Of a stretch of 64,000 bases of DNA, positions 5,223 through 60,793 are shown in pieces. Position numbers and translations under genes: made by a program. Source of the DNA: a virus; the IMG/VR virus record IMGVR_UViG_3300009502_000046, positions 1 to 64,000 of that record; one strand, written 5' to 3'. The notes beneath the pieces were generated by a model. It did no database searches. It was not told where the DNA came from and saw only the letters and a list, made by a program, of their open reading frames with translations. Position 1 is the first letter of the stretch; every line of letters starts with the position of its first letter.

Positions 5223-5597
5223 TTATTTACTTTTTAAAACGCTCAAAATCTCATGTAATGCCCAGTATTCTGGATTTACAAATGCTGTAACAGCACCGAA
5301 TAAACCAATTATGGCAACCACAACCATCACACCAATGAATGTTGTTGGCAAAAACATTGCTGGCCCTAAATACTCTAATTTTTCATACCAATTACAACAA
5401 GCGCTGTTTGGATGTTTACCAGAGAATTTTTTGTGCAATTTATACAACACTGCAACACAAATTGATGTCAAAACAGCAAACATAATACTCAATATGCCAT
5501 CAATAAATGCTTGCTTGACCAACACATCCCACAAATAACCAGATGTTACACCCAATTTTTCCGCTAATTTTTCTAACACTGGAACCAATTCTTTCAT
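5223..5597 (-). CDS. Membrane protein, unknown function
   Basis: 124 residues with two clear hydrophobic spans (about 32-52 and 82-105) separated by a charged KLHKKFSGKH loop with two adjacent cysteines. An inner-membrane hairpin is likely. The start has a TAGGAG site. It follows the RNA ligase gene by 9 bp, so they are probably co-transcribed. Confidence 0.75.
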   Translation of the reverse strand: MKELVPVLEKLAEKLGVTSGYLWDVLVKQAFIDGILSIMFAVLTSICVAVLYKLHKKFSGKHPNSACCNWYEKLEYLGPAMFLPTTFIGVMVVVAIIGLFGAVTAFVNPEYWALHEILSVLKSK

Positions 5598-5606
5598 TTT
5601 ATTCTC

Positions 5607-6614
5607 CTATTCTTTGTTCTTCAATAAAAAATCATTGTTGAGGCATTTAATACTCATTCTGCCATTCATTGCCCGTGAAACCATTTCTACGACTGGACGA
5701 ATAACAATTCCTTCACGGAAATTATTAGTATCTTCATACACACCCTTTGCCATTTCTAACAATTCATCAACTGAATTATTGAAATACCATATATCAATAA
5801 TAGGCACCATTTCAAGTTGCAAATCTCGACAAACTTGTTTTAGTTCTTCAAAGTTTGCATATCGTTGTTCATCAATAAACCATACATTGAATACAAACAA
5901 TTTATGTCCTTTCAATTTCAGATGGTTCTTTTGTATTCCTTCGCCACACAACTCTGCCTGTATAGCAATATTCTTACCATATTTCAAAAGTTTGTCTTGT
6001 AAGTCATACTTATACATCATTTTGATATAGATGTTGTCATCATTACCTTCTAATTTCAAGGCATTGTTGCGAGAACAAACATTGATTTCATCGTTCAAAC
6101 ATCCAATCGTCCAACTTGTGCCATCACACTTTACGGTACTATAGACCTTCACGCCCCGTAACTCATTGATTACATCAGGGTAGTTTTGTATCCTATCTTC
6201 ATCTGTCTTAGGAATATAAGGCGGAAAATTACCTTTGATTAGCCCACGCATTTCAGGTGGTATTGGTTTTTCATAATGAGTAACACCCAAAACATTAGAA
6301 ATATCCAAATCTTCTTCAATAAGAAACGGAAATGGATAATCGGCCAAAATTGTAATTGGAAATACAATGCCTTGGGACAAAGCGCCACGTAATCTTTTGG
6401 TTTTGATACGGAATTTTTCTTTTCGTAAAAATTCAAAAATCATTGATTCACGTACAATAGAATCAAGGGCAATATAAACACATAAATCACCAACTCTAAA
6501 GTCGCCACGCTTAGTCACAACCTGCCAACCCAAGACTTTTACTACATCTAAAAAGTCTGAATTTTCAACAGGCTGAACATCAATTATTCTTTGGATGGTT
6601 GCTTCTCTGGACAT
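5607..6614 (-). CDS. RNA ligase, DRB0094 (Rnl5-like) family
   Basis: This joins RNA ends, probably repairing nicked tRNAs or other RNAs. The 335 residues have the layout of the Deinococcus DRB0094 ligase: an N-terminal OB-like module (about 1-110), then a nucleotidyltransferase domain with the KCDG lysine motif at residue 162 and later motifs LCGEGIQ, FNVWF, EGIVIRP and SIK. The ATG has a weak site. The neighbouring tRNA array and the cyclic-phosphate receiver at 11.8 kb support an RNA-repair role, which is inference. Confidence 0.9.
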   Translation of the reverse strand: MSREATIQRIIDVQPVENSDFLDVVKVLGWQVVTKRGDFRVGDLCVYIALDSIVRESMIFEFLRKEKFRIKTKRLRGALSQGIVFPITILADYPFPFLIEEDLDISNVLGVTHYEKPIPPEMRGLIKGNFPPYIPKTDEDRIQNYPDVINELRGVKVYSTVKCDGTSWTIGCLNDEINVCSRNNALKLEGNDDNIYIKMMYKYDLQDKLLKYGKNIAIQAELCGEGIQKNHLKLKGHKLFVFNVWFIDEQRYANFEELKQVCRDLQLEMVPIIDIWYFNNSVDELLEMAKGVYEDTNNFREGIVIRPVVEMVSRAMNGRMSIKCLNNDFLLKNKE

Positions 6615-6617
6615 TAC

Positions 6618-6785
6618 TTATTTCCTTTCCCTTTTAATTTTTAATTTTTCTAATTTTGCTCGTAAATCATCAATAGTTATAATATCACTACCTCTTGATA
6701 ATTTTTTTATATCTTCCCACATAAAGGGGCTACCTTCTGTTTTCCAGAATGCCAATAATTCTTTTCTATTAGTAATGTTGTTCAT
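6618..6785 (-). CDS. Small helical protein
   Basis: 55 residues from the ATG at 6785 (MNNITNRKELLAFWKTEG), preferred over an upstream ATG that lies before the promoter -10. A GGGG-rich site lies at the right distance. The C-terminus is basic. Only 3 bp separate it from the RNA ligase, so it heads that operon. Confidence 0.7.
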   Translation of the reverse strand: MNNITNRKELLAFWKTEGSPFMWEDIKKLSRGSDIITIDDLRAKLEKLKIKRERK

Positions 6786-6814
6786 AATAAAAACCCCTTT
6801 CATAGTATGTAAGT

Positions 6815-6843
6815 ATAATACCATAAAAGGGGTGATTTGTCAA
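6815..6843 (-). promoter_or_regulatory. Early promoter
   Basis: TTGACA and TATTAT with a 17-bp spacer and TGG before the -10; it starts the 6785-to-5223 operon. Confidence 0.85.
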
Positions 6844-6861
6844 GGAAAATATATCCCTTAT

Positions 6862-7191
6862 TTAATCGTATTCATAATCGTGTCCGTGTCTGCCTTTCCA
6901 GTTTTGTATCAACAAGTCTTTTGCTTTATCATTCAGATTATCCAAAGCACCAAAATCCGCATCCTCCTCACCAGACACGCCTCGAGCATGTTGCCGTTCA
7001 TGTTGTAAGATAATATCCTTTTCATTTTTAGTCAAAGACGGATCGTTACAGATAACAATAATAGTTTTAGATTTTGATGTTATAGTCAATGCGTATTGTT
7101 CGGTCGAATCAAAATCATCATTCACAGATAACAATGTTTTCTTGAACGTGTCGAAATCTGATTTAGATAAGTATCGTATTATAGTTTTCAT
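6862..7191 (-). CDS. Small HExxH-type zincin-like protein
   Basis: 109 residues. The LQHERQHARG segment (about 66-75) is an HExxH metallopeptidase signature, followed by GEEDADFGAL, which could give the third zinc ligand. It resembles the minimal zincins found in phages. Its start overlaps the end of the cpYpsA-like gene by 4 bp. Protease activity is inferred only from the motif. Confidence 0.7.
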   Translation of the reverse strand: MKTIIRYLSKSDFDTFKKTLLSVNDDFDSTEQYALTITSKSKTIIVICNDPSLTKNEKDIILQHERQHARGVSGEEDADFGALDNLNDKAKDLLIQNWKGRHGHDYEYD

Positions 7192-19830: not shown

Positions 19831-20979
19831 CTATTTTTTTATCAATCTAAATTTTGAATCCTTACCAAATGCTGTAGCATTTGATATAAATTCTTCTTCT
19901 GTTTGGCCAATCCATCGAAATATATTATGTGTTTTTGTTGTTGGCAAAAATCCGTGCATAAAGGTATACATCCTTGTTACACCTTTCACCAATTCATCCG
20001 TCCACTTATCACCGATATAAGAATTTCTTTTTAATGCAGTCAATGGTTCATATCTTTGTGGAAACAAAAAAATTGTTCTCCCAACATCATCTGTCATTTG
20101 TTGTGCTTTGATAATTCTTTTCCAAAAATCACTAGGACTATCCTTCCAATTAAATAACATATAACAAAAGAAACCTGCTTTTACTTTATATTTTTCGACA
20201 TATTCTAACGCACGTCTGATATGCTTTTCGTATCCAATGAAATCAAAACTAAACCTCAAATATGCTGTTCCTTTTTCCTTTTGCGCCCCCCATTTCAATT
20301 CGCTAAATCTTTTTGCTTGATGTTCAGTAAATGACGATACATGAAGGCCATGTATGTCAACAGGTAAACCAAATTCAATCAGTTCATCTACTATATTATC
20401 AAAATATTCGTGTTCAGTGAAGTTATTATCATATAGAACAACACTTGTAGCATCAGGAATTTCCAATATGCCTTTTTGTAAAATGTTCTTTATAGATTTA
20501 AATGATTTCATACATCCTTCTAATGTAGGAACGGCACAATAACCACATTTATTTACACATCCTCTTGATGCATATAAAACAATTTTTTTCGAGTCTGGAC
20601 ATACTGAATATTTTGGTGTCAAATTTTCTATTTCTTCACACATCCCACTAACAACCGTCACTTTACCTCTTGATAAAAATGGATTGGATGGAAATGTAGT
20701 ATTGAACCACTCTGGATTTAAAGTAGGAAACGAACCACCTACAATTATTTCCGCCTGTGGATATTTTGTTCTATAAAAATTAATTGTATCCTTATATATT
20801 TCTGAATAAAACGAAAAAATGCACGAAATAAGTATCTTATCAGGTATAAACATTTCAGGGCTTTTACCGATAACATACTTATATTCATGTTTATTTTGTT
20901 CGCACCATTCTGCCCATTTCATCAAGGCTATATTAGGTGCTATTGATTTAACCGATGGTTCAACTATAAGATATTTCAT
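19831..20979 (-). CDS. Radical SAM protein with B12-binding-like N-terminal domain
   Basis: 382 residues. An N-terminal Rossmann-like part (about 1-120, IIVGGSFPTLNPEWF) resembles cobalamin-binding domains. The iron-sulfur motif is SRGCVNKCGYCAVP (Cys 141, 145, 148), followed by a TIM-barrel segment with RFSFDFIG and a C-terminal helical part. Such B12-radical SAM enzymes make methyl or C-C changes on varied substrates; the phage target is unknown. It ends just before the PD-(D/E)xK gene. Confidence 0.87.
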   Translation of the reverse strand: MKYLIVEPSVKSIAPNIALMKWAEWCEQNKHEYKYVIGKSPEMFIPDKILISCIFSFYSEIYKDTINFYRTKYPQAEIIVGGSFPTLNPEWFNTTFPSNPFLSRGKVTVVSGMCEEIENLTPKYSVCPDSKKIVLYASRGCVNKCGYCAVPTLEGCMKSFKSIKNILQKGILEIPDATSVVLYDNNFTEHEYFDNIVDELIEFGLPVDIHGLHVSSFTEHQAKRFSELKWGAQKEKGTAYLRFSFDFIGYEKHIRRALEYVEKYKVKAGFFCYMLFNWKDSPSDFWKRIIKAQQMTDDVGRTIFLFPQRYEPLTALKRNSYIGDKWTDELVKGVTRMYTFMHGFLPTTKTHNIFRWIGQTEEEFISNATAFGKDSKFRLIKK

Positions 20980-30890: not shown

Positions 30891-30899
30891 TATCGTTTT

Positions 30900-30971
30900 G
30901 ATTGATAATGGGAATCGAACCCATATAAACGATGTAGTATCGTTTGTTTGACCATATTAAACTACATCAAT
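30900..30971 (-). tRNA. tRNA-like gene with anticodon CTA (amber-reading)
   Basis: Acceptor ATTGATG/TATCAAT, T8-A9, D-arm GTTT...AAAC, anticodon arm AACGA-TACTACA-TCGTT, T-arm ATGGG-TTCGATT-CCCAT. Anticodon CTA would read UAG. Position 33 is A, not T, and no CCA is encoded, so function is uncertain. Confidence 0.65.
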
Positions 30972-30976
30972 CAGTT

Positions 30977-35945: not shown

Positions 35946-36074
35946 ATGAAGTGGCGGTATATTTTAATAGCGATATGTCTTACATTGTTTTCAATGGCAT
36001 TAAATAATGTCAATGAAATGACGTTGTGTATATTACTTGTTATGTGGCTACATCAGAAGGATGTGATGAAATGA
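35946..36074 (+). CDS. Tiny membrane protein
   Basis: 42 residues with one or two membrane spans (YILIAICLTLFSMAL, TLCILLVMW). AAAGG site. Its TGA overlaps the clamp-loader ATG. Confidence 0.55.
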   Translation: MKWRYILIAICLTLFSMALNNVNEMTLCILLVMWLHQKDVMK

Positions 36075-36970
36075 TAAATGATAAACAGGCAATTTGGGTG
36101 TTCAAACATGAACCTACTGAATTTGAAGATATGGTTCTCAATGAGGATGTTCGTGGTAAATTAGGAAAGGCATTAGTTGAAATTCCAAATCTAATGTTAG
36201 TTGGCCCTGCTGGTGTTGGTAAAGGAACCTTTACACATATATTTTTGAAAAAAACAGGTCTTGATAGTCTTTGGGTAAATTGTTCTGATGAAACATCTAT
36301 TGATAATATCAGAACAAAAGTGAAATCGTTCGCAACATCTTTGGGTATTACACCTTTGAAGGTTGTTGTATTGAACGAATGTGATTTTCTATCGGTGCCC
36401 GGCCAAGCCATGCTTAGAGATTTGATTGAACAAGTCCAAAAAATTACACGGTTTATTATCATGTGTAATTATGGTCATAAGATAATTCCCGAATTACAAT
36501 CTCGATGTCAGATTGTTGAATTAGGCAACCCACCTTTGAAGGATGTTGCTAAATTTGTTATGGGAATACTCAAAAAAGAAAAAGTGGTCATTGATAAAAT
36601 AGAAACAGTGGTTGATACAGTAAAAAAATTATATCCAGATATTAGGTCAACCATCAATACACTACAATTGAATACAGTCAATGGCTGTATTACAAATGTC
36701 AAACTGGAAAATACAACTGGCGTTTATGATAAAATATTGAACCTAGCAATGTCTTCTGACTTAGACGGTATAAGGAAAGCATTGAGGTCGAATACAATAA
36801 ATTATACCGATTTATATCAATACTTTTTTGATAATGTCGGTGGGTTTAAGTCGCCGGGGGATGCCATCATTGAAATCGCCGAAGCAATGTATCGTGATAG
36901 TATTATCGCAATCAAAGAAATCAATTTCATTTCATGTGTTTTGAAATTGATTAAAAAGGGTTGTATATGA
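36071..36970 (+). CDS. 44: Clamp-loader large subunit, T4 gp44-like
   Basis: 299 residues from the ATG at 36071 overlapping the preceding stop. An AAA+ ATPase: Walker A GPAGVGKG (about 45-52), Walker B VVVLNECD, sensor 1 FIIMCNYG, and the LQSRC arginine-finger region. C-terminal helices form the collar. With the gp62-like protein it loads the gp45-like clamp (37.9 kb). Gene order (44, small gene, 62, small gene, 45) is a rearranged T4 core. Confidence 0.93.
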   Translation: MINDKQAIWVFKHEPTEFEDMVLNEDVRGKLGKALVEIPNLMLVGPAGVGKGTFTHIFLKKTGLDSLWVNCSDETSIDNIRTKVKSFATSLGITPLKVVVLNECDFLSVPGQAMLRDLIEQVQKITRFIIMCNYGHKIIPELQSRCQIVELGNPPLKDVAKFVMGILKKEKVVIDKIETVVDTVKKLYPDIRSTINTLQLNTVNGCITNVKLENTTGVYDKILNLAMSSDLDGIRKALRSNTINYTDLYQYFFDNVGGFKSPGDAIIEIAEAMYRDSIIAIKEINFISCVLKLIKKGCI

Positions 36971-37209
36971 AATGCGATGGGCACATAAACATCAATTCCG
37001 GTGGCGCTCTTTGGAGGGCAACGTGTGACCTTGAAGAAGGACATGAAGGTTCTCATGTGTTTTATGGTGATAATTATAAACTGACATGGCTTACACAGGC
37101 AAAGATGATTGAGAATTATAATCATGAAGTAGGTTTGTTATCGGACGAAGTAAAAGAAAATTGTAAAAGAAAACTAATGGTAGAAAATCTTGTAGAGAGT
37201 ATATTTTAA
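36967..37209 (+). CDS. Small protein with His/Cys pattern
   Basis: 80 residues from the ATG at 36967 (overlaps the stop before it). MKCDGHININ, WRATCDLEEGHEGSHVFYG resembles the short HxC motifs of phage proteins of the RATCDLxxGHEGxH type. Unknown role. Confidence 0.75.
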   Translation: MKCDGHININSGGALWRATCDLEEGHEGSHVFYGDNYKLTWLTQAKMIENYNHEVGLLSDEVKENCKRKLMVENLVESIF

Positions 37210-37610
37210 TGGCTGAGAAAACCATATTCGATTATTTGAATAATATTTATTTGAAGGGCGATTTGAAGTACGATAAGAAATTAGCACCTGTTTATCTTAT
37301 TTCATTATGGTTGTCCCATGATAAACAACTACTTGATATTGTTGACAAAATCAACGAGTTCCAGTTCTTTCTTCCAGACAATTTAATTTATGAATATTAT
37401 TATCATAAGGTGCCTAAAGGAAAACGATATATAAAGTGGGTTAAAAAAGAAGAAGTTGATAAAAAGGAAAAGGAAAAATTTGATTCTATCCGCAAGGATA
37501 TGATGTTATCAAAAAAGGAAATGTCTTATTTTCAATCGTTTACAAATCTATTGGAAAGTAATAAGATAAGTAAGAAAACAACAAAAAATGCATCATCAAT
37601 ATTTTTATAG
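37209..37610 (+). CDS. 62: Clamp-loader small subunit, T4 gp62-like
   Basis: 133 residues. YYYHKVPKGKRYIKWVKK matches the VPRGKRYGKWAK signature of T4 gp62, with helical flanks. Shorter than T4 gp62 (187). Position just after gp44-like and near gp45-like supports the call. Confidence 0.87.
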   Translation: MAEKTIFDYLNNIYLKGDLKYDKKLAPVYLISLWLSHDKQLLDIVDKINEFQFFLPDNLIYEYYYHKVPKGKRYIKWVKKEEVDKKEKEKFDSIRKDMMLSKKEMSYFQSFTNLLESNKISKKTTKNASSIFL

Positions 37611-37898: not shown

Positions 37899-38648
37899 AT
37901 GTTAATCAACACAAGTGAATTAAAAACGTTTTTAAAAAAGGCCACGATCAACTACTGTATTGATAGTGTTCAGATAAATTTGACAAAAGCCCTCGTAACA
38001 TCAAAGATGATTTCGGCGGCCTCTGATGTAATTTCATTACTCAAATTACCTAATGAAATACTACCTAGCATGAAGGCCACGGATACATTGGTTCTGAATT
38101 TTGCTGAACCAAATACAAACATCGTTCCATACCTCAATCTTATTGATGATGATGTAGAAACAACGATAGCTATTAAGGATGAAAAAATTACATTGATTCA
38201 GGGGAAACAAAAATCCAATATGTTTTTTTGCTCGCCCCAAATGGTAAATGTTTTTGAGGCGGATAGTCCACGAGCTGATATTGATTACTTCAAAGTGATG
38301 GATATTGATGATGATTTTATTGAATCCTTCAATAAAATTAAAAAGATTGGGTCAAAATTTAATAAGATTTATTTTGGTGTTTTGGATAATGTGTTATATA
38401 TAGAAGCATCGGATAAACAAAATAGATTTTCAAATGGATTGAGAATTGATTTATGTGACGTGACATATGATAATATGTCCATGTGTTTTGATTTCAAAAA
38501 TGTGGTCAATGTAATGTCGGTATTAGACATGGTTGATTTTACATGTCATTTTGCCTATGTTCCAGAACAAGAATTAGGTATGATATATATCGGAAATGAA
38601 AATGAAAGTGAAAAATACTATTTAATGAGTAAAAACGATGGTGTATAA
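37899..38648 (+). CDS. 45: Sliding clamp, T4 gp45-like
   Basis: 249 residues with the alternating strand-helix-strand layout of gp45 (two similar halves, about 1-115 and 130-249). It holds the polymerase on DNA and, in T4, also activates late transcription together with gp55. Both partners are present here. The call rests on position, length and fold pattern. Confidence 0.85.
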   Translation: MLINTSELKTFLKKATINYCIDSVQINLTKALVTSKMISAASDVISLLKLPNEILPSMKATDTLVLNFAEPNTNIVPYLNLIDDDVETTIAIKDEKITLIQGKQKSNMFFCSPQMVNVFEADSPRADIDYFKVMDIDDDFIESFNKIKKIGSKFNKIYFGVLDNVLYIEASDKQNRFSNGLRIDLCDVTYDNMSMCFDFKNVVNVMSVLDMVDFTCHFAYVPEQELGMIYIGNENESEKYYLMSKNDGV

Positions 38649-38682: not shown

Positions 38683-38716
38683 AGGTTTATAATTGAATAA
38701 GAAAGGAAATGGAAAA

Positions 38717-39160
38717 ATGACGGATAACATTTTTAATGTGTTATTTCTTGATTTTGACGGTGTTCTCAATAGGTATGGTCATTTAAAGAGTTGTGGGCTT
38801 TTATCGAAAAATTGTATTTCAAAATTAAATACGATTGTGGAGCAAACAGAAAAGTTAAGGATTGTAATTTCAAGTTGTTGGAGGATGGGTCGTTCAGTTG
38901 AAGTGTTACGACATATCTTGAAAAATGGTGGATTTAAGTATTCAAATTTTATTATTGATACTACGTTGTTTGGTGTTGAACTGAGCACAAGGGGTGATGA
39001 AATTAAGGAATGGCTTAGTCGAAATAATCGTGTAAATAAATTTGTTATTATTGATGATAATTCTGATATGGCACCTTATATGGATCGATTGGTTCAAACC
39101 AATGGTAAAATGGGAATTACAGATAATGATGTAAATGAAGTTGTAAATTTGTTCAAATAG
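38717..39160 (+). CDS. HAD-family phosphatase, RNA-repair type
   Basis: 147 residues from the ATG at 38717 (an upstream start would be TTG). NVLFLDFDGVLNRYGHL is HAD motif I, SSCWR motif II, FVIIDDNSDM motif IV. This minimal HAD matches those linked to RNA-repair proteins (Swiss Army Knife group). It might remove a 3' or 2'-phosphate before ligation by the RNA ligase; that link is inference. Confidence 0.85.
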   Translation: MTDNIFNVLFLDFDGVLNRYGHLKSCGLLSKNCISKLNTIVEQTEKLRIVISSCWRMGRSVEVLRHILKNGGFKYSNFIIDTTLFGVELSTRGDEIKEWLSRNNRVNKFVIIDDNSDMAPYMDRLVQTNGKMGITDNDVNEVVNLFK

Positions 39161-39354: not shown

Positions 39355-39383
39355 TTGACAAACATGAATAAATAAGGTATAGT
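39355..39383 (+). promoter_or_regulatory. Early promoter of the ubiquitin-like gene
   Basis: TTGACA and TATAGT, 17-bp spacer. Confidence 0.8.
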
Positions 39384-39414
39384 GTAGTTACAAAATTAAA
39401 CAGGAGGTTATGTT

Positions 39415-39693
39415 ATGGAAAGAGAAGTTTGGGGTGGTGAAAATTTTCAGTATAATGAAGGCGCAATCCAAACTGGCATTATGGTAAACGGAACGACAAT
39501 TCCGGTTGAACCAGGCGCTAGTTTTAGGGATACAATCAAAAACGTGTCGCTTGATGCGGGTTTTGGTAAGTATCGTGTGTTTCTGAACGGTGCTGAAATT
39601 CGTCCGTCTGAAGCGCCCGCTCTGTTCAACGCAGGCGATAAAGCCGAAGTGCGCGCATATGACGATGCCGGAGCTATAATCCTTTGCCAGTAA
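39415..39693 (+). CDS. Ubiquitin-like (beta-grasp) small protein candidate
   Basis: 92 residues (AGGAGG site). After a 20-residue lead, GIMVNGTTIPVEPGASFRDT forms a strand-turn-strand and helix, then KYRVFLNGAEIRPSEAP and GDKAEVRAYDDAG give the remaining strands: the beta-grasp order of MoaD/ThiS/ubiquitin. The chain ends AGAIILCQ rather than a bare diglycine, so tail trimming after DDAG may be needed. Next genes are an E2-like candidate, an E1 and a JAMM protease. Own promoter and terminator. Confidence 0.7.
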   Translation: MEREVWGGENFQYNEGAIQTGIMVNGTTIPVEPGASFRDTIKNVSLDAGFGKYRVFLNGAEIRPSEAPALFNAGDKAEVRAYDDAGAIILCQ

Positions 39694-39733
39694 GGATTTG
39701 GACGTTTAATTCATGGGTTTCGCGAAATCAGTG

Positions 39734-39769
39734 AAAAAAGGTTGTATATATTATGTATACAACCTTTTT
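39734..39769 (+). terminator. Intrinsic terminator
   Basis: AAAAAAGGTTGTATA and TATACAACCTTTTT hairpin with T tract, after the ubiquitin-like gene. Confidence 0.9.
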
Positions 39770-39824
39770 ACGTTGTATCCAATGGTATGCTGAACGATAC
39801 GATATTGGTGGATAAAAATAAATG

Positions 39825-39853
39825 TTGACAAATGGAACAAAACGTGGTATTAT
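39825..39853 (+). promoter_or_regulatory. Early promoter of the E2-like candidate gene
   Basis: TTGACA and TATTAT, 17-bp spacer, TGG before the -10. Confidence 0.85.
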
Positions 39854-39883
39854 AAGAGAAAAAAATGAAGAGAGGATATAACA

Positions 39884-40750
39884 ATGGCTGATACCAGCAA
39901 CATTAAAGATAAGCTTAAAGCATATCATGACAGTATGATTCAAACACTTGAAACGTTGAAAATTGACGATCTCAAAACAACGACTGTTACGATACGTCTA
40001 GGCAATAAAATATATGATTTGGTTGCTTCAAAAGAATCCGTGATTGTTGATGAAGATCAGATCAGGAAAGAATTTGAAGATAAACTAACAGAAAAACGTT
40101 TGAATATCAGGGATACAATTAAGGCTAAAATGTCCGAAGTTTCGGCATTAGTGTCGTCTATTCAAAGTGAATATGAACGAAAAGAAAAAATCCTAAAGGA
40201 TACAATGTCGAAAGCGGCACCTATGCCAGAAGTAACATGGTCACATGCACAACGTGGGTTGTCCATTGTTAAGGGTGGTTCGCGTGGTGAAATTATTTGG
40301 ATTGTCAAAAGAACGTATAATCCTAAATTCATGGATCATAAGAGTATTGAACCGTTATATGTCAAGAAATTAATGACCCATATTTATATCAGAATTACAA
40401 CTAGGGATAACGCTGTTATGGGTGTGTCTTCACACTATATGAATAATATGGATTATTTTGACCACTATCATCAAGCCCGTCCTGATTGTTGGGGAAATTG
40501 GAAATACCCTAAATCGTGGAATACCGCGGATGATATTATCAAAATCGCTGATGATGCCACATCTGTAATGGAAAACATTAACACAATGTCCGTTGCACAC
40601 AGGACGCCATCGTTGATGCCACGGTTGGAAACTTTACGCCGTCATTTAGCCAAAGATCCGATCGCTCCACCTGTTGTTAAGGTTGGTGTGTCTGATATGA
40701 GAGAAGGACTTGGTATGAACGCTCCAAATAGCGATATTTGGGGAAACTAA
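39884..40750 (+). CDS. E2-like candidate of the ubiquitin-like cassette
   Basis: 288 residues (GAGGATATA site). An N-terminal coiled-coil part (about 10-110) is followed by a domain with strands (IIWIVKRTYNP, THIYIRITTRD) and a HYHQARPDCWGNWKYPKSW segment. It then has a helix pair (TADDIIKIADDATSVMENI). The sole cysteine (202) lies in PDCWG, where E2-type proteins hold their active cysteine before the last helices. The fold is inferred from this layout and from its position between ubiquitin-like and E1 genes; no direct E2 motif is proven. Confidence 0.5.
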   Translation: MADTSNIKDKLKAYHDSMIQTLETLKIDDLKTTTVTIRLGNKIYDLVASKESVIVDEDQIRKEFEDKLTEKRLNIRDTIKAKMSEVSALVSSIQSEYERKEKILKDTMSKAAPMPEVTWSHAQRGLSIVKGGSRGEIIWIVKRTYNPKFMDHKSIEPLYVKKLMTHIYIRITTRDNAVMGVSSHYMNNMDYFDHYHQARPDCWGNWKYPKSWNTADDIIKIADDATSVMENINTMSVAHRTPSLMPRLETLRRHLAKDPIAPPVVKVGVSDMREGLGMNAPNSDIWGN

Positions 40751-40756
40751 CAGGAT

Positions 40757-40783
40757 GAACCGGAGGAAATTTTCCTCCGGTTC
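40757..40783 (+). terminator. Intrinsic terminator
   Basis: GAACCGGAGGAAA and TTTCCTCCGGTTC pair across one base; weak T tract. Confidence 0.8.
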
Positions 40784-40792
40784 ATTATTATG

Positions 40793-40821
40793 TTGACATA
40801 ACAGGGGTTTTGTGTTATAAT
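40793..40821 (+). promoter_or_regulatory. Early promoter of the E1-JAMM operon
   Basis: TTGACA and TATAAT, 17-bp spacer, TGT before the -10. Confidence 0.87.
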
Positions 40822-40852
40822 CAATTTATAATAAAGAAAGGAAATAAAAACT

Positions 40853-41434
40853 ATGAGCCGTTTATATGAACGACAAGAAAGTTTAAAATTGAATAAGGAT
40901 ATTAGCATCACCGTGATTGGTTGTGGTGGTGTTGGTTATTGGACGGCAAAATTTGCTGCAATGTCTGGAATTGAAAAGATTTATTTGTTTGATTTCGATG
41001 TTATTGAGGAACATAATTTGAATCGGTTGGATTTACCGATAAGTGCAATTGGTCAGAACAAAGCGGCCGTTACGAAATCGGTTATCAATTTTTTACGTCC
41101 TGAAACGACCGTGTTTGCACTGCCTTTCAAATTTAAAGAAGGTCTTTTCAAAATGACAGATTGGATTATTGATTGCACAGATCGTTCCAATGTTCAAGAG
41201 GAAAATCAAGCTATCGCAAAAGCCAATGGTGCAAAATATTTGAAGGTTGGGTATAACGGTGAACATATCACTTTATCAAATGTTGTTGCCGAGTGGGGTG
41301 AGTCTACCGATGGGTACACGGTTATTCCATCGTGGGTTGTTCCTGCCACCGTTGTGGCCGCACTTGCCGTTGGAAAAATCATGAAATATTATGATAAAGA
41401 GATTTCTACCAATTTAAAAGATTTGTATAATTAA
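40853..41434 (+). CDS. E1/ThiF-family adenylating enzyme
   Basis: 193 residues. SITVIGCGGVGYWTAKFAA is the nucleotide loop (GxGGxG at 23-28), YLFDFDVIEEHNLNR supplies the Asp and Arg for ATP, and DWIIDCTDRSNVQEENQAIA the following motif. The family adenylates the C-terminus of ubiquitin-like proteins. It is short and has only two cysteines, both in the core, so a separate thioester cysteine domain is missing. It may only adenylate, or pass the protein straight to the one-cysteine neighbour. First gene of a two-gene operon with the JAMM protease. Confidence 0.92.
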   Translation: MSRLYERQESLKLNKDISITVIGCGGVGYWTAKFAAMSGIEKIYLFDFDVIEEHNLNRLDLPISAIGQNKAAVTKSVINFLRPETTVFALPFKFKEGLFKMTDWIIDCTDRSNVQEENQAIAKANGAKYLKVGYNGEHITLSNVVAEWGESTDGYTVIPSWVVPATVVAALAVGKIMKYYDKEISTNLKDLYN

Positions 41435-41471
41435 GATTATGGGAAAAAAGAAAAATAGGAGAAAAAAGAAA

Positions 41472-42254
41472 ATGAATAAAATATATAGAGCATATAATTT
41501 TCAATCAGTTGAAAATCAATTGGATGCACTTGAACCGATTGCGGCCGATGATGGGTGGGGTAACACCGCTGATGATTTGAAGGTAGTTTCCACTTGTGGA
41601 CGTAAACCAGAAGGAGCATTGACAATTTTATTCAGTCGGATTGCCAAAGCAAAGGTTGATATTCTAATGAAGAAATATCAAAATCTGGAATGGTTAGCAT
41701 ATCTAATTGGCGATGCTAGTAACCGATTTGTACGAGATATTGTTTTACCTGAGCAAGAAGTAACGTCTGGAGCGGTTACTGTGACTGGCCCTCAGCCGAG
41801 TTCTGATGTAATGGGTGTCATTCATTCCCATCACAGCATGGGAGCGTTCTTTTCGGGGACAGATGATGCTTATATCAATCAAAATTATGATATTTCGGTT
41901 GTCGTTGCCCACAATGGAATTAAAGCACAGGTACGATGGGTAACGCCTTGTGGATATAAGGTTGTGTCGGATGGTCAGGTTATTGTTGAAAGCGAAAATC
42001 TGTTTGATGAAAACGATTTTATCAGCCAAGTGGATACGGTGGTTACACCTAAAACCTTCAACCTGATTAAATCCGTATGTGGAACAGGAACAAAAATTCC
42101 TGTAAAACATCGAAAAGGTATAAGAGGATTGTCAGGATTGTCAGGATCGTATATGCCAAAAGTTGATATTGATGAAGAAACATCACCTGAACATCCAGAT
42201 GAAGGTGAAAATTTGGCGGATATGCTCACACGGGATTTCTGTAACAGGTCATAA
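41472..42254 (+). CDS. JAMM (JAB/MPN) metalloprotease
   Basis: 260 residues from the ATG at 41472 (AGGAG upstream; an earlier ATG lacks a site). The JAMM zinc motif is complete: Glu 73 in NLEWLAYLIG, then HSHHSMGAFFSGTD with His 118, His 120, Ser 128 and Asp 131. A C-terminal extension of about 100 residues is acidic. The family cuts ubiquitin-like tails and removes conjugates; here it would mature the 39415 protein or undo its linkage. Terminator follows. Confidence 0.92.
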   Translation: MNKIYRAYNFQSVENQLDALEPIAADDGWGNTADDLKVVSTCGRKPEGALTILFSRIAKAKVDILMKKYQNLEWLAYLIGDASNRFVRDIVLPEQEVTSGAVTVTGPQPSSDVMGVIHSHHSMGAFFSGTDDAYINQNYDISVVVAHNGIKAQVRWVTPCGYKVVSDGQVIVESENLFDENDFISQVDTVVTPKTFNLIKSVCGTGTKIPVKHRKGIRGLSGLSGSYMPKVDIDEETSPEHPDEGENLADMLTRDFCNRS

Positions 42255-42275
42255 TTTAAATTTAAAATAATAATT

Positions 42276-42314
42276 AAAAAACCCATAGGATATTTTTTAC
42301 CTTATGGGTTTTTT
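42276..42314 (+). terminator. Intrinsic terminator
   Basis: AAAAAACCCATAGG and CCTTATGGGTTTTTT hairpin with T tract, ending the cassette. Confidence 0.88.
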
Positions 42315-42316
42315 AT

Positions 42317-45230: not shown

Positions 45231-48200
45231 ATGAATAAAGGAATAGAAAATTCACAATTGAGTGAAATGGCAAAAAGAATATTTTTGGATTTGTATAGTT
45301 TCAGTGATGAAACTATTGACGATACATTCAAACGGGTTTCAAAAGAATTTGGTAACGATGATGATGCTAAATTAGCATATGACTTAATGAAGAAAAATAT
45401 ATGGCGTCCATCAACACCGATATTTTTTAATTCGGGGTCAACGAAAAAGATTTTTTCGGCATGTTGGGTGGTAAACCTTGATGATAGTATGGATAGTATA
45501 TATGATGTAGCAAATGTTGCAAGAAAAATCTTTCAGAGCGGTGCTGGCATTGGTATTCCTATTGGCAAGTTGCGTGAAAAGGAAGCTAATATATATGAAG
45601 GTCAGGAGAAAACTGATAATGTTCCCAGCGGACGTTCAAGCGGCCCAATATCATTTATGACATTATTTGATGCTGTTGGGGCAACAACAAAATCTGGTGG
45701 TAGAGCAAGACGAGCAGCTATTATGTGTGCTATGCCCATAAACCATCCTGATATTATGGAATTTATCGAATGTAAAAGTGTTGATGGTGTGTTGTCAAAT
45801 ATGAATATATCTGTATCTGTTACAGATGACTTTATGCAAGCATTCAAAGATAATATACCATATTCTTTGATATCACCCGCCAATGGCCCTGTAAAGGAAA
45901 TAAATGCTAGAGTTATTTGGGATAAGATTGTTGATATGGCACACAAGACTGCCGACCCTGGCGTTTTGTTTATTGATACTATCAACAAATTCAATCCTCT
46001 GAAAAAAATATTGAAAATTGATTGCACAAATCCTTCGTTGAGGGCAGGAACAAAGGTTATTACTGATGGTGGTATATATCCGATAGAACAATTAGAAAAC
46101 AAAAAATTTCTTGTTATAAATCAAAAGGGTGAATATTCACCAGCAAAATGCTTTTTATCAGGAAAAGAGAAAGAATTGTTTGAAATAACATTAATGGGAG
46201 GTAAAAAGTATTATTCAACTGCCGAACATAAATGGCCAGTGTTGAATAACAACATATATGAAAAAAGACAGACAACCGACCTCAAATCAGGCGATTACCT
46301 ACCTATTGTAAGAATGAATTCTCTTGGATATGGTGTGAAGGGCAATTATGATGATGGTTTCGTTATTGGATGGAATCTAGGAGATGGATGGATAACAGAT
46401 AGAAAGGATAATGGTAAACGTCAGTATGGGTTTATATTTAGTAATGAAGATATTGAAAATGGAATATATGATAGGGTGATGAAAAAAATAACATCAATAA
46501 CAAATAAAGTATATAATCCTTCAAAGATAGATGGTTGCATTGAATTTAATACAACAAATAATGATTTAGATACTTTCTTTAGGTCGTATGGTGTTGATAA
46601 AAAATCAACTGGGATGCCTTCTAGTGTATGGACAACAGCATCAGAGGAATTTAGAAAAGGGTTGATTGACGGTTTATTTTCATCAGATGGTTATGTCGAT
46701 AAATCTGGAAGCCGATGTGTTTTTTGCAGTAGTAATTATAAATTAGCATCAGATGTTTCAGAAATATTAGGATTTTATGGAATCAAAACAAGATTAACAG
46801 AGTCAACATCATCTAATATATCGTTTCCAAATGGAAAATTATATGGCAGAGCTTATACTAGATATTTCGTACAATTGTTCACATCATCATTGATGCATTT
46901 TAGAGACATATTTACTCTTTCAAATAATAGGAAAAATGAGTTGATGTGGATGAAAAAATCATTAAATAAAGGTGGAATGGTATATGATAATATTAAAATA
47001 AAGAGTATAACCAAAACAGATATAAAAGAAGATGTGTGGGATATTAGTGTTTTTGATGATACACATACTTTTAAACTTTCTCATGTGATCACAGGAAATT
47101 GCGGCGAACAGCCTTTGATTCCATATACATCTTGTAATTTGAGTTCAATCAATTTACATAGATTTTGTAGTAATGATGGATATAATTTTGATGGACTATA
47201 TAAAACAGCATACAATGTTACAAGATTGATGGATAATCTTATTGATAATATGGAATTTCCAGATGAACGGTTCAAAATTAATGTATTGAAGTATCGTCCA
47301 ATAGGTGTTGGTATTATGGGGTTGGCGGACACTTTATATGAAATGGGTTTGCCATATGATGATAAAGAAGGACAGATATTTGCTGAAAAATGTATGAAGA
47401 TTGTTACTACAGCCAGCTTAGAGGCTAGTTCTGATATAGCAAAGGAAAAAGGAACATTTACTGATTATAAACTTGTAGAAGATGATGTTTTAGAAATTGT
47501 ATCTTCTTTTATTGATGACCCATCAGTATTAGAAAAAATTAAAAAATATGGTTTGAGAAATTGTCAACACACAACGGTGGCGCCAACCGGAAGTATTGCT
47601 TTATCATGTGATTGTTCATATGGTATGGAACCGAGTTTTGGTTTAGTATTTCAAAAAAGATTGGTTGAATCTGGTGATACATATATTTTAGTCAATCCAA
47701 TATTCAAAAAGAAGTATGAAAACGAATCATGGTATACACCTGAAATGATTGAGAAAATCGTTCAAAACGGAGGGTCATTGAAGGGTATTAGAGGAATACC
47801 AAAAGAAGTACGTGAAGTATTTGTTGTTGCTCATGATATTAAAGCTAAGGATAGAATTGATATGCAGTCTGTATTACAAAAACACGTATCGACTGCCATT
47901 AGTAGCACGACAAATTTACCATCCACAACAACAAGGGATGAAATATCTGAAATATATAGATATGCTTATCAAAAAGGACTGAAAGGTGTTACAATTTATA
48001 GGGATGGTTCTAAAAAATTGCAACCCATTTCTTTTTCAAATAAAGAGAAAGTAGAGGTTGTTCCTAATTTTAAACGACCTACAAAATTATTAGCAGTTAG
48101 ACATGAAGTTGAAACCGGCAATGGTAAAATGTATATCATCGTATCAACACATGATGGCAAACCTGTAGAAGTTTTTCTTTCAATGGGTAAATCTGGACAA

Positions 48201-48533
48201 TTATTCAATAGTTTTTGTGAGGGTCTTGGAAGAACCGTATCCATTGCGTTACAACACGGAACGCCGGTAGCGGCAATCATCAAAACCCTTGAAGGAATAA
48301 ATTCAGACCGTCCTAATTGGTTCAGGTTTGAGGAAACAGATAAAAAGCCAACACAAATATTGTCGATTCCAGATGCTATAGCAAAATTATTGGAACGATA
48401 TTACCTGAATGATAATAAAATCATCAATGTTGAATCAGAAGGTGAATTATGTCTAAAATGTGGTAGATATGCTGTTATACCTTTTGAAGGATGCCATATA
48501 TGCACATCATGTAATGATAGTCGGTGCGGATAA
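45231..48533 (+). CDS. nrdJ: Class II (B12-dependent) ribonucleotide reductase NrdJ with intein
   Basis: 1100 codons (GGAGG site). The extein of about 745 residues has ATP-cone-less NrdJ features: WRPSTPIFFNSG, GAGIGIPIGKLR, DCTNP joined to CGEQPLIPYTSCNLSSINL, CQHTTVAPTGSIAL and a C-terminal TSCPD part ending in four cysteines (CLKCGRY...CTSCNDSRC). It makes dNTPs from NTPs using adenosylcobalamin without oxygen. A 355-residue intein interrupts it in front of the active-site cysteine. No small subunit gene is needed. Confidence 0.95.
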   Translation: MNKGIENSQLSEMAKRIFLDLYSFSDETIDDTFKRVSKEFGNDDDAKLAYDLMKKNIWRPSTPIFFNSGSTKKIFSACWVVNLDDSMDSIYDVANVARKIFQSGAGIGIPIGKLREKEANIYEGQEKTDNVPSGRSSGPISFMTLFDAVGATTKSGGRARRAAIMCAMPINHPDIMEFIECKSVDGVLSNMNISVSVTDDFMQAFKDNIPYSLISPANGPVKEINARVIWDKIVDMAHKTADPGVLFIDTINKFNPLKKILKIDCTNPSLRAGTKVITDGGIYPIEQLENKKFLVINQKGEYSPAKCFLSGKEKELFEITLMGGKKYYSTAEHKWPVLNNNIYEKRQTTDLKSGDYLPIVRMNSLGYGVKGNYDDGFVIGWNLGDGWITDRKDNGKRQYGFIFSNEDIENGIYDRVMKKITSITNKVYNPSKIDGCIEFNTTNNDLDTFFRSYGVDKKSTGMPSSVWTTASEEFRKGLIDGLFSSDGYVDKSGSRCVFCSSNYKLASDVSEILGFYGIKTRLTESTSSNISFPNGKLYGRAYTRYFVQLFTSSLMHFRDIFTLSNNRKNELMWMKKSLNKGGMVYDNIKIKSITKTDIKEDVWDISVFDDTHTFKLSHVITGNCGEQPLIPYTSCNLSSINLHRFCSNDGYNFDGLYKTAYNVTRLMDNLIDNMEFPDERFKINVLKYRPIGVGIMGLADTLYEMGLPYDDKEGQIFAEKCMKIVTTASLEASSDIAKEKGTFTDYKLVEDDVLEIVSSFIDDPSVLEKIKKYGLRNCQHTTVAPTGSIALSCDCSYGMEPSFGLVFQKRLVESGDTYILVNPIFKKKYENESWYTPEMIEKIVQNGGSLKGIRGIPKEVREVFVVAHDIKAKDRIDMQSVLQKHVSTAISSTTNLPSTTTRDEISEIYRYAYQKGLKGVTIYRDGSKKLQPISFSNKEKVEVVPNFKRPTKLLAVRHEVETGNGKMYIIVSTHDGKPVEVFLSMGKSGQLFNSFCEGLGRTVSIALQHGTPVAAIIKTLEGINSDRPNWFRFEETDKKPTQILSIPDAIAKLLERYYLNDNKIINVESEGELCLKCGRYAVIPFEGCHICTSCNDSRCG
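46035..47099 (+). mobile_element. Intein with LAGLIDADG endonuclease in NrdJ
   Basis: Residues 269-623 of the NrdJ frame. The first residue is Ser (SLRAGTKVITDGG), block B is STAEHKWPV, and the two dodecapeptides are VIGWNLGDGWITD and LIDGLFSSDGYVD. The end is HTFKLSHVITGN followed by Cys+1. The penultimate residue is Gly where His is usual. Splicing restores NP-CGEQP in the catalytic site. Confidence 0.92.
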
Positions 48534-60313: not shown

Positions 60314-60793
60314 ATGATAAGATTTGAAGATGTAATTTCAGAGGTAACTGATTTGGCACGTGAGGTTCAGGCGGAATTTTTTCCTGAATTGCGTAATGTT
60401 AAAATCAAATATTTGTTTGATTTGAAGAAACGTCAATCAAATGGTAAAATTGTTCTTGGTCGTTGTCAAAAAACAAATGATATTTTGAAACATTTCACCA
60501 TTGATGAATCTGGTGATGATGAAGGATTTGCTTTTATTATCTATTTGGATAAGTGTGCATGGGAAAATATAACAAGAACAGATAGGGTTCGCCTATTGCG
60601 GCATGAAATGAGGCATGTGTTTGTTGACCTTGATTCAGAAAGAAATCCCTATAAAATTGTTGACCATGATGTAACCGATTTTTATGAAGAAATTGAATTG
60701 AATACAGATGATTCAAGATGGGCAGAACGAGTGGCTAACTTAGCGGCTGAAATTTATAGTCAACGCAGAGATCAAGAAGGTGACGAGGAATAA
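60314..60793 (+). CDS. Putative phage metallopeptidase
   Basis: 159 residues. RVRLLRHEMRHVFVDLD is the HExRH zinc motif; NPYKIVDHDVTDFYEEIELN and WAERVANLAAEIY complete the pattern of the phage metallopeptidase family. AAAGGAG site. Possibly processing virion or host proteins. Confidence 0.87.
   Translation: MIRFEDVISEVTDLAREVQAEFFPELRNVKIKYLFDLKKRQSNGKIVLGRCQKTNDILKHFTIDESGDDEGFAFIIYLDKCAWENITRTDRVRLLRHEMRHVFVDLDSERNPYKIVDHDVTDFYEEIELNTDDSRWAERVANLAAEIYSQRRDQEGDEE

Follow-up and report, generated by a model that had tools for sequence, protein, structure and literature searches.

A candidate reversible ubiquitin-like conjugation cassette at a fixed site behind the sliding clamp in a lineage of T4-like phages

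What use would a phage have for a ubiquitin-like tagging pathway of its own? The question is raised by four consecutive open reading frames (ORFs) at 39415-42254 of the IMG/VR virus contig IMGVR_UViG_3300009502_000046, identified by ORF listing and translation and all encoded on the + strand. The window, by which we mean the whole stretch of DNA analysed, comprises 64,000 of the 66,848 bases of this contig, which is itself a fragment; the clamp-loader, clamp and cassette genes and the promoters and terminators of the cassette lie on its + strand. An initial annotation, made from the sequence of the window, had proposed that the four genes encode a ubiquitin-like protein (UBL) of beta-grasp fold, an E2-like candidate with one cysteine, an E1/ThiF enzyme and a JAMM protease. 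That gene set stands: the ORFs, Pfam matches to ThiF and Prok-JAB, and synteny in 31 other distinct contigs all bear it out. Here we present evidence that the cassette is a module at a fixed site behind the sliding clamp gene, not an isolated insert, and we argue, with moderate confidence, that it encodes a reversible ubiquitin-like protein conjugation system. Relatives were collected by scanning IMG/VR with E1 and E2 alignments, by a hidden Markov model survey of the loci, and then by clamp and clamp-loader scans.

The four proteins and their conserved residues

The first gene (39415..39693) encodes a UBL of 92 residues with 35 homologues, for which AlphaFold2 predicts a single beta-grasp domain of b-b-a-b-b-b order (predicted local distance difference test, pLDDT, 74). 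Almost all of the top 50 matches of this model in a Foldseek search of the PDB were of ubiquitin, SUMO, ThiS or MoaD type (best E 5e-3, probability about 1), and the ubiquitin-like fold proposed at the outset is thereby supported at the level of prediction. No family match was obtained in Pfam, NCBIfam, PHROGs or PADLOC, including scans member by member; one family member gave a weak ThiS match (E 0.21), and tblastn against 50,697 phage records returned nothing significant. The family C-terminal motif is [YF][DE]xAG, with a terminal AG in 30 of 36 sequences, another glycine in three and no glycine in three. Exactly at AG, 17 of the 36 stop; the others are 1-6 residues longer, most relatives carrying 0-2 extra. 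In the window, the presumed mature C-terminus, Ala85-Gly86 (39667..39672), is followed by a six-residue extension, AIILCQ (39673..39690), which is presumably trimmed. Since the family ends in AG with an extension of 0-6 residues, the tail that the initial annotation had noticed past DDAG is best read as processable, and on this point its suggestion of unusual chemistry falls away.

The second gene (39884..40750) encodes the E2-like candidate, 288 residues long, with a coiled-coil helix at residues 57-110 and a core at 112-245. Its 35 homologues share the motif F-x-H-Y-H-x(2-8)-C-W-G, in which F192, H194, Y195, H196, C202, W203 and G204 are invariant (35/35), and C202 is the sole conserved cysteine column. 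The candidate active site, FDHYHQARPDCWG, which includes Cys202, lies at 40457..40495 and its motif is invariant in the family; the feature looked for as a mark of membership, a catalytic cysteine with a nearby histidine, is present as C202 with H194 and H196 in all 35. In the AlphaFold2 model (pLDDT 81), one long and one short helix are followed by four long strands, the cysteine loop and another helix. A helix, four strands, a cysteine loop and a helix is the element order of the UBC core. Genomic context, the FxHYH...CWG motif, the order of the predicted strands and its relationship to the E2 of another cassette type (below) suggest that the protein is an E2, its UBC fold being unconfirmed by the structure and profile searches considered below. 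The one-cysteine part of the original proposal thus holds, and the UBC-like fold that it called for remains a candidate. The 50,697 phage records contained no tblastn match to this protein. In one relative, L010, the E2 gene matches in two pieces (5276-6895), as a duplication, an intron or a frameshift might produce.

The third gene (40853..41434) encodes an E1/ThiF-type adenylating enzyme of 193 residues (Pfam ThiF 1.5e-21) with a complete adenylation set of GxGGxG, Arg finger, DxD, NxxR, Lys and DxxD; R7, the GxGGxG motif, D47, D49, N55, R58, K70 and D110 are invariant across homologues. Searched against the PDB, its profile matched E1, MccB and MoeB structures with E-values down to 2e-18, Cap2 at 5e-12 and BubCD at 1e-8, and the protein also matches E1-E2 models of PADLOC. 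The lack of a separate thioester cysteine, pointed out in the initial annotation, extends to the whole family, in which the only invariant cysteine is C108 of the structural motif DCTD. With no conserved thioester cysteine in the E1, direct transfer to Cys202 of the E2 candidate is the simplest reading.

The fourth gene (41439..42254) encodes a JAMM/MPN+ metalloprotease of 271 residues, or 260 from the in-frame ATG at 41472, with a Prok-JAB match of 4.7e-7 that is above the cut-off. Its catalytic residues (Glu 41688, His 41823, His 41829, Ser 41853 and Asp 41862, within 41688..41864) are E84/H129/H131/S139/D142 counted from 41439 and E73/H118/H120/S128/D131, as first annotated, counted from 41472; all are invariant in 33 homologues. 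Also invariant in these 33 are C42 and C160 (260-residue numbering), which lie outside the metal motif. The JAMM motif is kept throughout even though 17 of the 36 UBLs already stop at AG, which argues that the protease is needed beyond trimming, and its main job is probably tag removal.

A further feature is shared among three of the proteins. A tryptophan flanked by acidic and small residues is found at the C-terminus of the E2 candidate and at the N-terminus of the JAMM protein in 33 of 33 sets each, and at the N-terminus of the UBL in 22 of 33, with phenylalanine in three more; short UBLs do not have that region. In the window the motifs read REVWGG in the UBL, SDIWGN-stop in the E2 candidate (Trp286, 40739..40741) and DDGWGN in the JAMM protein (41556..41558), against a tryptophan background of 1.6%. 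The scripted pick of the JAMM tryptophan sometimes took a second one, so the family alignment is the better evidence. No such motif was present in the E1 ends inspected. We suggest that the motif may dock the UBL, the E2 candidate and the JAMM protein, most simply on the E1, or else on the clamp.

A module at a fixed site behind the sliding clamp

In the 31 other contigs the order is a gp44-like loader, a gp62-like loader, the clamp, UBL, E2 candidate, E1 and JAMM, with order and strand constant and at 30-60% identity; this synteny rules out chance. By the initial annotation's own criterion, it would have been refuted if the E1 and JAMM genes of related phages had other, unrelated neighbours; the opposite was found, as the order of the four genes is kept in 31 of 31. 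The series in the window opens, outside the cassette, with the large subunit of a T4 gp44-like clamp loader (36026..36970; PHROG_168, 2.6e-59), followed by the gp62-like small subunit (37209..37610; PHROG_225, 2.6e-15, and synteny) and by a gp45-like sliding clamp (37899..38648). The clamp ORF has no PHROG match of its own and is assigned by position, as it is syntenic in all cassette-bearing relatives that have the region. Between clamp and UBL lies a HAD_SAK_2 gene, a HAD of RNA-repair type (38693-39160), served by a separate 12/12 promoter (38654); the gap between clamp and UBL in this genome is mostly due to this inserted gene. Insertions occur elsewhere also: in L003, a GIY-YIG-like ORF separates E2 from E1. 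No conserved partner enzyme besides the replisome genes adjoins the cassette in the relatives.

The larger relatives encode a T4-type Gp23 capsid protein (E 1e-76 to 1e-108) and a terminase, which marks the clade, made up of uncultured phages, as T4-like; the window's contig lacks capsid and terminase genes because it is a fragment. A Thermoplasmata metagenome-assembled genome (MAG) contains two of the relatives (L104 and L105), and a Candidatus Izimaplasma MAG contains a third, which does not settle the host. In a midpoint-rooted tree of clamp loader and clamp, relatives without the cassette fall at three places, most simply as three losses. Furthermore, cassette and replisome distances are correlated (Mantel r 0.48-0.69, permutation maxima 0.16-0.29; loader versus clamp 0.73), and the median identity is higher for E1 (53%) than for the clamp (38%). 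Taken together, the correlation and the cassette-less relatives indicate that the cassette is old, mostly vertically inherited and dispensable.

The genes are arranged in three transcription units. A near-consensus sigma-70 promoter precedes the UBL gene (39355..39383; TTGACA-17-TATAGT, 11/12), which is followed by a terminator (39735..39770; 16-bp stem, -16.8 kcal/mol, z -6.6). A second near-consensus promoter (39825..39853; TTGACA-17-TATTAT, 11/12) and terminator (40754..40786; 15-bp stem, z -6.7) enclose the E2 candidate. E1 and JAMM form a pair behind a full-consensus sigma-70 promoter (40793..40821; TTGACA-17-TATAAT, 12/12), the JAMM gene having no promoter of its own, and a hairpin terminator follows (42275..42316; z -4.7). 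The initial annotation had seen a self-contained set in these signals; the three promoters and three terminators are there, and the isolation is not, given the fixed place behind the clamp.

The rest of the window includes 22 tRNA genes, among them one that ARAGORN calls as tRNA-Pyl with a CTA anticodon (30899-30972, minus strand); amber recoding, considered on account of this tRNA, found no support within the window. The half of the contig that is rich in tRNA genes also encodes an RNA ligase (5607-6614) and an NAD-dependent DNA ligase (400-2175). Also present are a Radical SAM domain protein (19831-20979; PHROG_9298, 1.2e-33), a ribonucleotide reductase large subunit split by a LAGLIDADG-containing intein (45231-48533), and a second metallopeptidase, PhageMetallopep (60314-60793; Pfam 1.7e-21), of a different family from the JAMM protein.

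Other cassette types and known systems

Two further cassette types were recognised besides that of the window (type A). Type B occurs in four uncharacterised IMG/VR viral contigs of 19-52 kb (L044, L045, L046 and L065), in the order UBL-E2-E1-JAMM; a clamp-loader gene was not found in the three records searched. Profile comparison with the window type gave 95% for the UBL (E 1.7e-8), 76% for the E2 (E 2e-5) and 99.7% for both E1 and JAMM, while unrelated pairs stayed below 1% with E at least 0.09. The alignment of type A and type B E2 proteins passes through His, Cys-x-Gly and Asn-x-x-Ser, and the type B motif, FHT..VCTG, shares one histidine, the cysteine and the glycine with that of the window type; the C-terminal tryptophan of the E2 is kept. 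By these sequence comparisons, all four type B proteins are homologous to those of the window type.

Type C, carried by crAss-like phages of the Steigviridae and by the FpV phages of Flavobacterium, is a row of UBL-like, E2-like, JAMM and ThiF genes adjoining primase and uracil-DNA glycosylase; in crAss001 (NC_049977.1; L130, 2714-7124) it spans gp79-gp76, and it is also seen in L124 and L126-L134. The records carry the annotations hypothetical protein, metalloprotease and thiamine biosynthesis; the UBL and E2 identities are our own reading of proteins recorded as hypothetical. Like the window, type C has a UBL-like protein (..KIKSG), an E2-like protein (MHSH..C[TL]G), and matching JAMM (98.4%) and E1 (98.5%) proteins in profile comparison. 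Unlike the window, it places JAMM before E1, its UBL has a long C-terminal domain, and its UBL and E2 show no detectable homology; single-sequence hhalign of the window's UBL and E2 against the crAss and Crinalium E2 and UBL likewise gave no match. Other arrangements were observed in passing: many viral contigs (L047-L086 except L065) have JAMM then E1, in reversed order; plasmid pNP7-2 of Moraxella osloensis (L120, 4554-8905) has two ThiF genes and an ABC protein; and on the Crinalium plasmid pCRI9333.03 (L121, 4929-8406) a ThiF gene occurs with a pair of small UBL-like genes, a protein annotated as E2 and a Mov34 protease.

Among known systems, one comparison is with operon type 6d, which we take to be the PRTRC-like systems. 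Iyer et al. (2006) described this type as genes for a UBL, a JAB, an E1-like and an E2-like protein (PMC1779556). The cassette resembles it in its adjoining stand-alone UBL, JAB, E1 and E2-like genes and in an N-terminal JAB extension with a conserved tryptophan; it differs in that the histidine lies upstream of the E2 cysteine here and downstream there, and in its setting in T4-like phages beside the clamp. Against the PRTRC models, JAMM matched PRTRC_A at 1.5e-6 (27.9 of 101.8 bits) and E1 matched PRTRC_ThiF at 2.5e-5 (23.8 of 144.75), and neither the E2 candidate nor the UBL matched the B and C models. PRTRC ParB, E and F, sought in the two neighbouring genes only, were not found, nor was the alpha-helical partner. 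Membership in PRTRC was rejected, as only A and ThiF match, far under the cut-offs. Prok-E2_D gave no match across 297 genomes of one phylum, which left no PRTRC set to compare by profile.

The initial annotation had also likened the cassette to the defence systems Bil, Bub and Cap2/Cap3 of the cyclic oligonucleotide-based antiphage signalling system (CBASS). They do have work-alikes of its parts (a UBL or target tail, E1, E2 and JAMM); unlike the cassette, they have fused or multi-domain E1s, a tandem UBL (BilA) and a defence or stress context. Bil has a two-domain UBL and an E1 with inactive and active domains and a Cys domain (PMC11354881), and was rejected because the 92-residue UBL is one beta-grasp domain and the 193-residue E1 a single domain without such a cysteine. 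Type II CBASS was rejected since E2 and E1 are separate genes and Cap2 is an E2-E1 fusion; no CD-NTase was noticed in the cassette neighbourhoods, a genome-wide search not having been made. Bub, for which a defence role is stated as not demonstrated (PMC13373217), was rejected since JAMM and E1 are separate in all relatives and BubCD is a fusion, as judged from PDB chain name and length. The lambda TAPI/TAPK tail assembly system, with a UBL and a JAB/NlpC protein encoded among tail genes, was rejected as well, the neighbours here being clamp loader and clamp, E1 and the E2 candidate. The cassette is a work-alike of the prokaryotic UBL systems and falls outside PRTRC, Bil, Bub and CBASS. A literature search found no paper describing E1, E2, UBL and JAMM genes together in a phage; its terms were partly off-target, so that absence is not proven.

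A proposed reversible tagging pathway and its rivals

The genes themselves, the intact active sites of E1 and JAMM, a predicted beta-grasp UBL with a glycine end, the invariant cysteine of the E2 candidate and the long co-inheritance of the four together point to a reversible conjugation pathway, which we infer would run as follows. The JAMM protein would trim the UBL tail where one is present, and the E1 would adenylate the C-terminal Gly86; the UBL would then pass from the adenylate straight to Cys202. The E2-like protein would couple it to a target, from which the JAMM protein would later take it off. The tryptophan motif could tether UBL, E2 and JAMM during these steps, most simply on the E1. 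Targets would probably be proteins, of the phage or of the host, encountered in the course of infection. The position behind the clamp makes the replication or late-transcription machinery the leading guess, gene order alone being weak evidence.

Several observations weigh against this pathway. No E3 or adaptor was recognised. The E2 candidate gave a best E of 0.48 in a Foldseek search of the PDB, with UFC1 at ranks 14, 26 and 45 (probability <0.1), and 0.13, nothing significant, in BFVD; in both searches the core may have been obscured by the extended coiled coil. Two of the top BFVD matches are 420 residues long, the length of the FpV4 E2-like protein, with which they are possibly identical. 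Profile searches of the PDB, run with the E2 alignments of the three cassette types and of the A+B core, returned no E2, and the protein has no match in Pfam, NCBIfam, PHROGs or PADLOC, member-by-member scans included. Two near-identical UBLs terminate in AA and one in ASS. Finally, five replisome relatives (L146, L150, L151, L155 and L161) have no cassette in their contigs, which are possibly fragments; the cassette is thus not essential.

The lack of any fold or profile match to UBC is also what would be expected if the 288-residue protein were not an E2 at all, and conjugation proceeded without one, as in archaeal SAMP, the protein serving as substrate or scaffold. To our knowledge, SAMP tagging needs no dedicated E2, and we know of no counterpart there of the 288-residue protein. 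Reversible UBL tagging with a JAMM protease has a prokaryotic precedent in SAMP1/HvJAMM1 of Haloferax (PMC4443979), which is cellular where the cassette is phage-borne. However, the 288-residue protein is always present and is collinear in two cassette types, its single invariant cysteine is accompanied by an upstream histidine and CxG, and its predicted element order fits UBC, so we give this alternative only a slim chance. The same constant fourth protein, with its single invariant cysteine and E2-like motif, speaks against a sulfur carrier, in which a UBL thiocarboxylate would feed a nucleotide, tRNA or small molecule in the manner of ThiS/ThiF or CysO/Mec+, the JAMM protein would free the product, and the 288-residue protein would be an accessory enzyme with a reactive cysteine. 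The ThiF/MoeB-like E1 without a thioester cysteine is in keeping with such a role, as are the weak ThiS match of one UBL, the ThiS/MoaD-type folds among the matches of the model, and the JAMM-UBL-ThiF pairs known in sulfur pathways (PMC1779556). But the UBL tail reads AG instead of GG, the genes checked showed neither a rhodanese nor a cysteine desulfurase, and the conserved neighbours are replisome genes only. We regard a sulfur carrier as unlikely.

A phage-borne defence or superinfection exclusion system, CBASS Cap2/Cap3- or Bil-like, could instead tag proteins of competing phages or an immune enzyme. The part list recalls Bil, Bub and Cap2/Cap3, and the E1 matches to Cap2, BubCD and the PADLOC models agree with it. 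Yet E2 and E1 are unfused, the UBL has one domain, and the E1 is without a Cys domain of the BilD type; neither an effector nor a CD-NTase was noticed next to the cassette; and vertical co-inheritance with the replisome differs from the sporadic spread of defence islands. The neighbourhood of the cassette likewise led us to reject a defence island. Of the likeness drawn initially, the similar part list therefore survives and the defence role is left without support, and we consider it improbable.

Bacterial ubiquitin-like systems are known mainly as anti-phage defence; here, a whole phage lineage appears to have one and has kept it beside its clamp across divergence reaching 30-40% identity. 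If the cassette is the reversible conjugation system that we favour, protein tagging would be a phage tool, and the distant counterpart in the cultured crAss001 offers a test phage. Two uncharacterised families without a Pfam entry, the UBL and the E2 candidate, together with an E1 without a thioester cysteine, bear on the origin of ubiquitin cascades. A bolder proposal, for which we see a small chance, is that the proteins tagged by T4-like phages belong to the apparatus of replication or late transcription, be it that of the phage or of the host, and may include the clamp encoded by the neighbouring gene. In the minimal cascade so proposed, such an E1 would directly load a new E2 family; if true, this tagging would be a viral counterpart of PCNA ubiquitination and SUMOylation.

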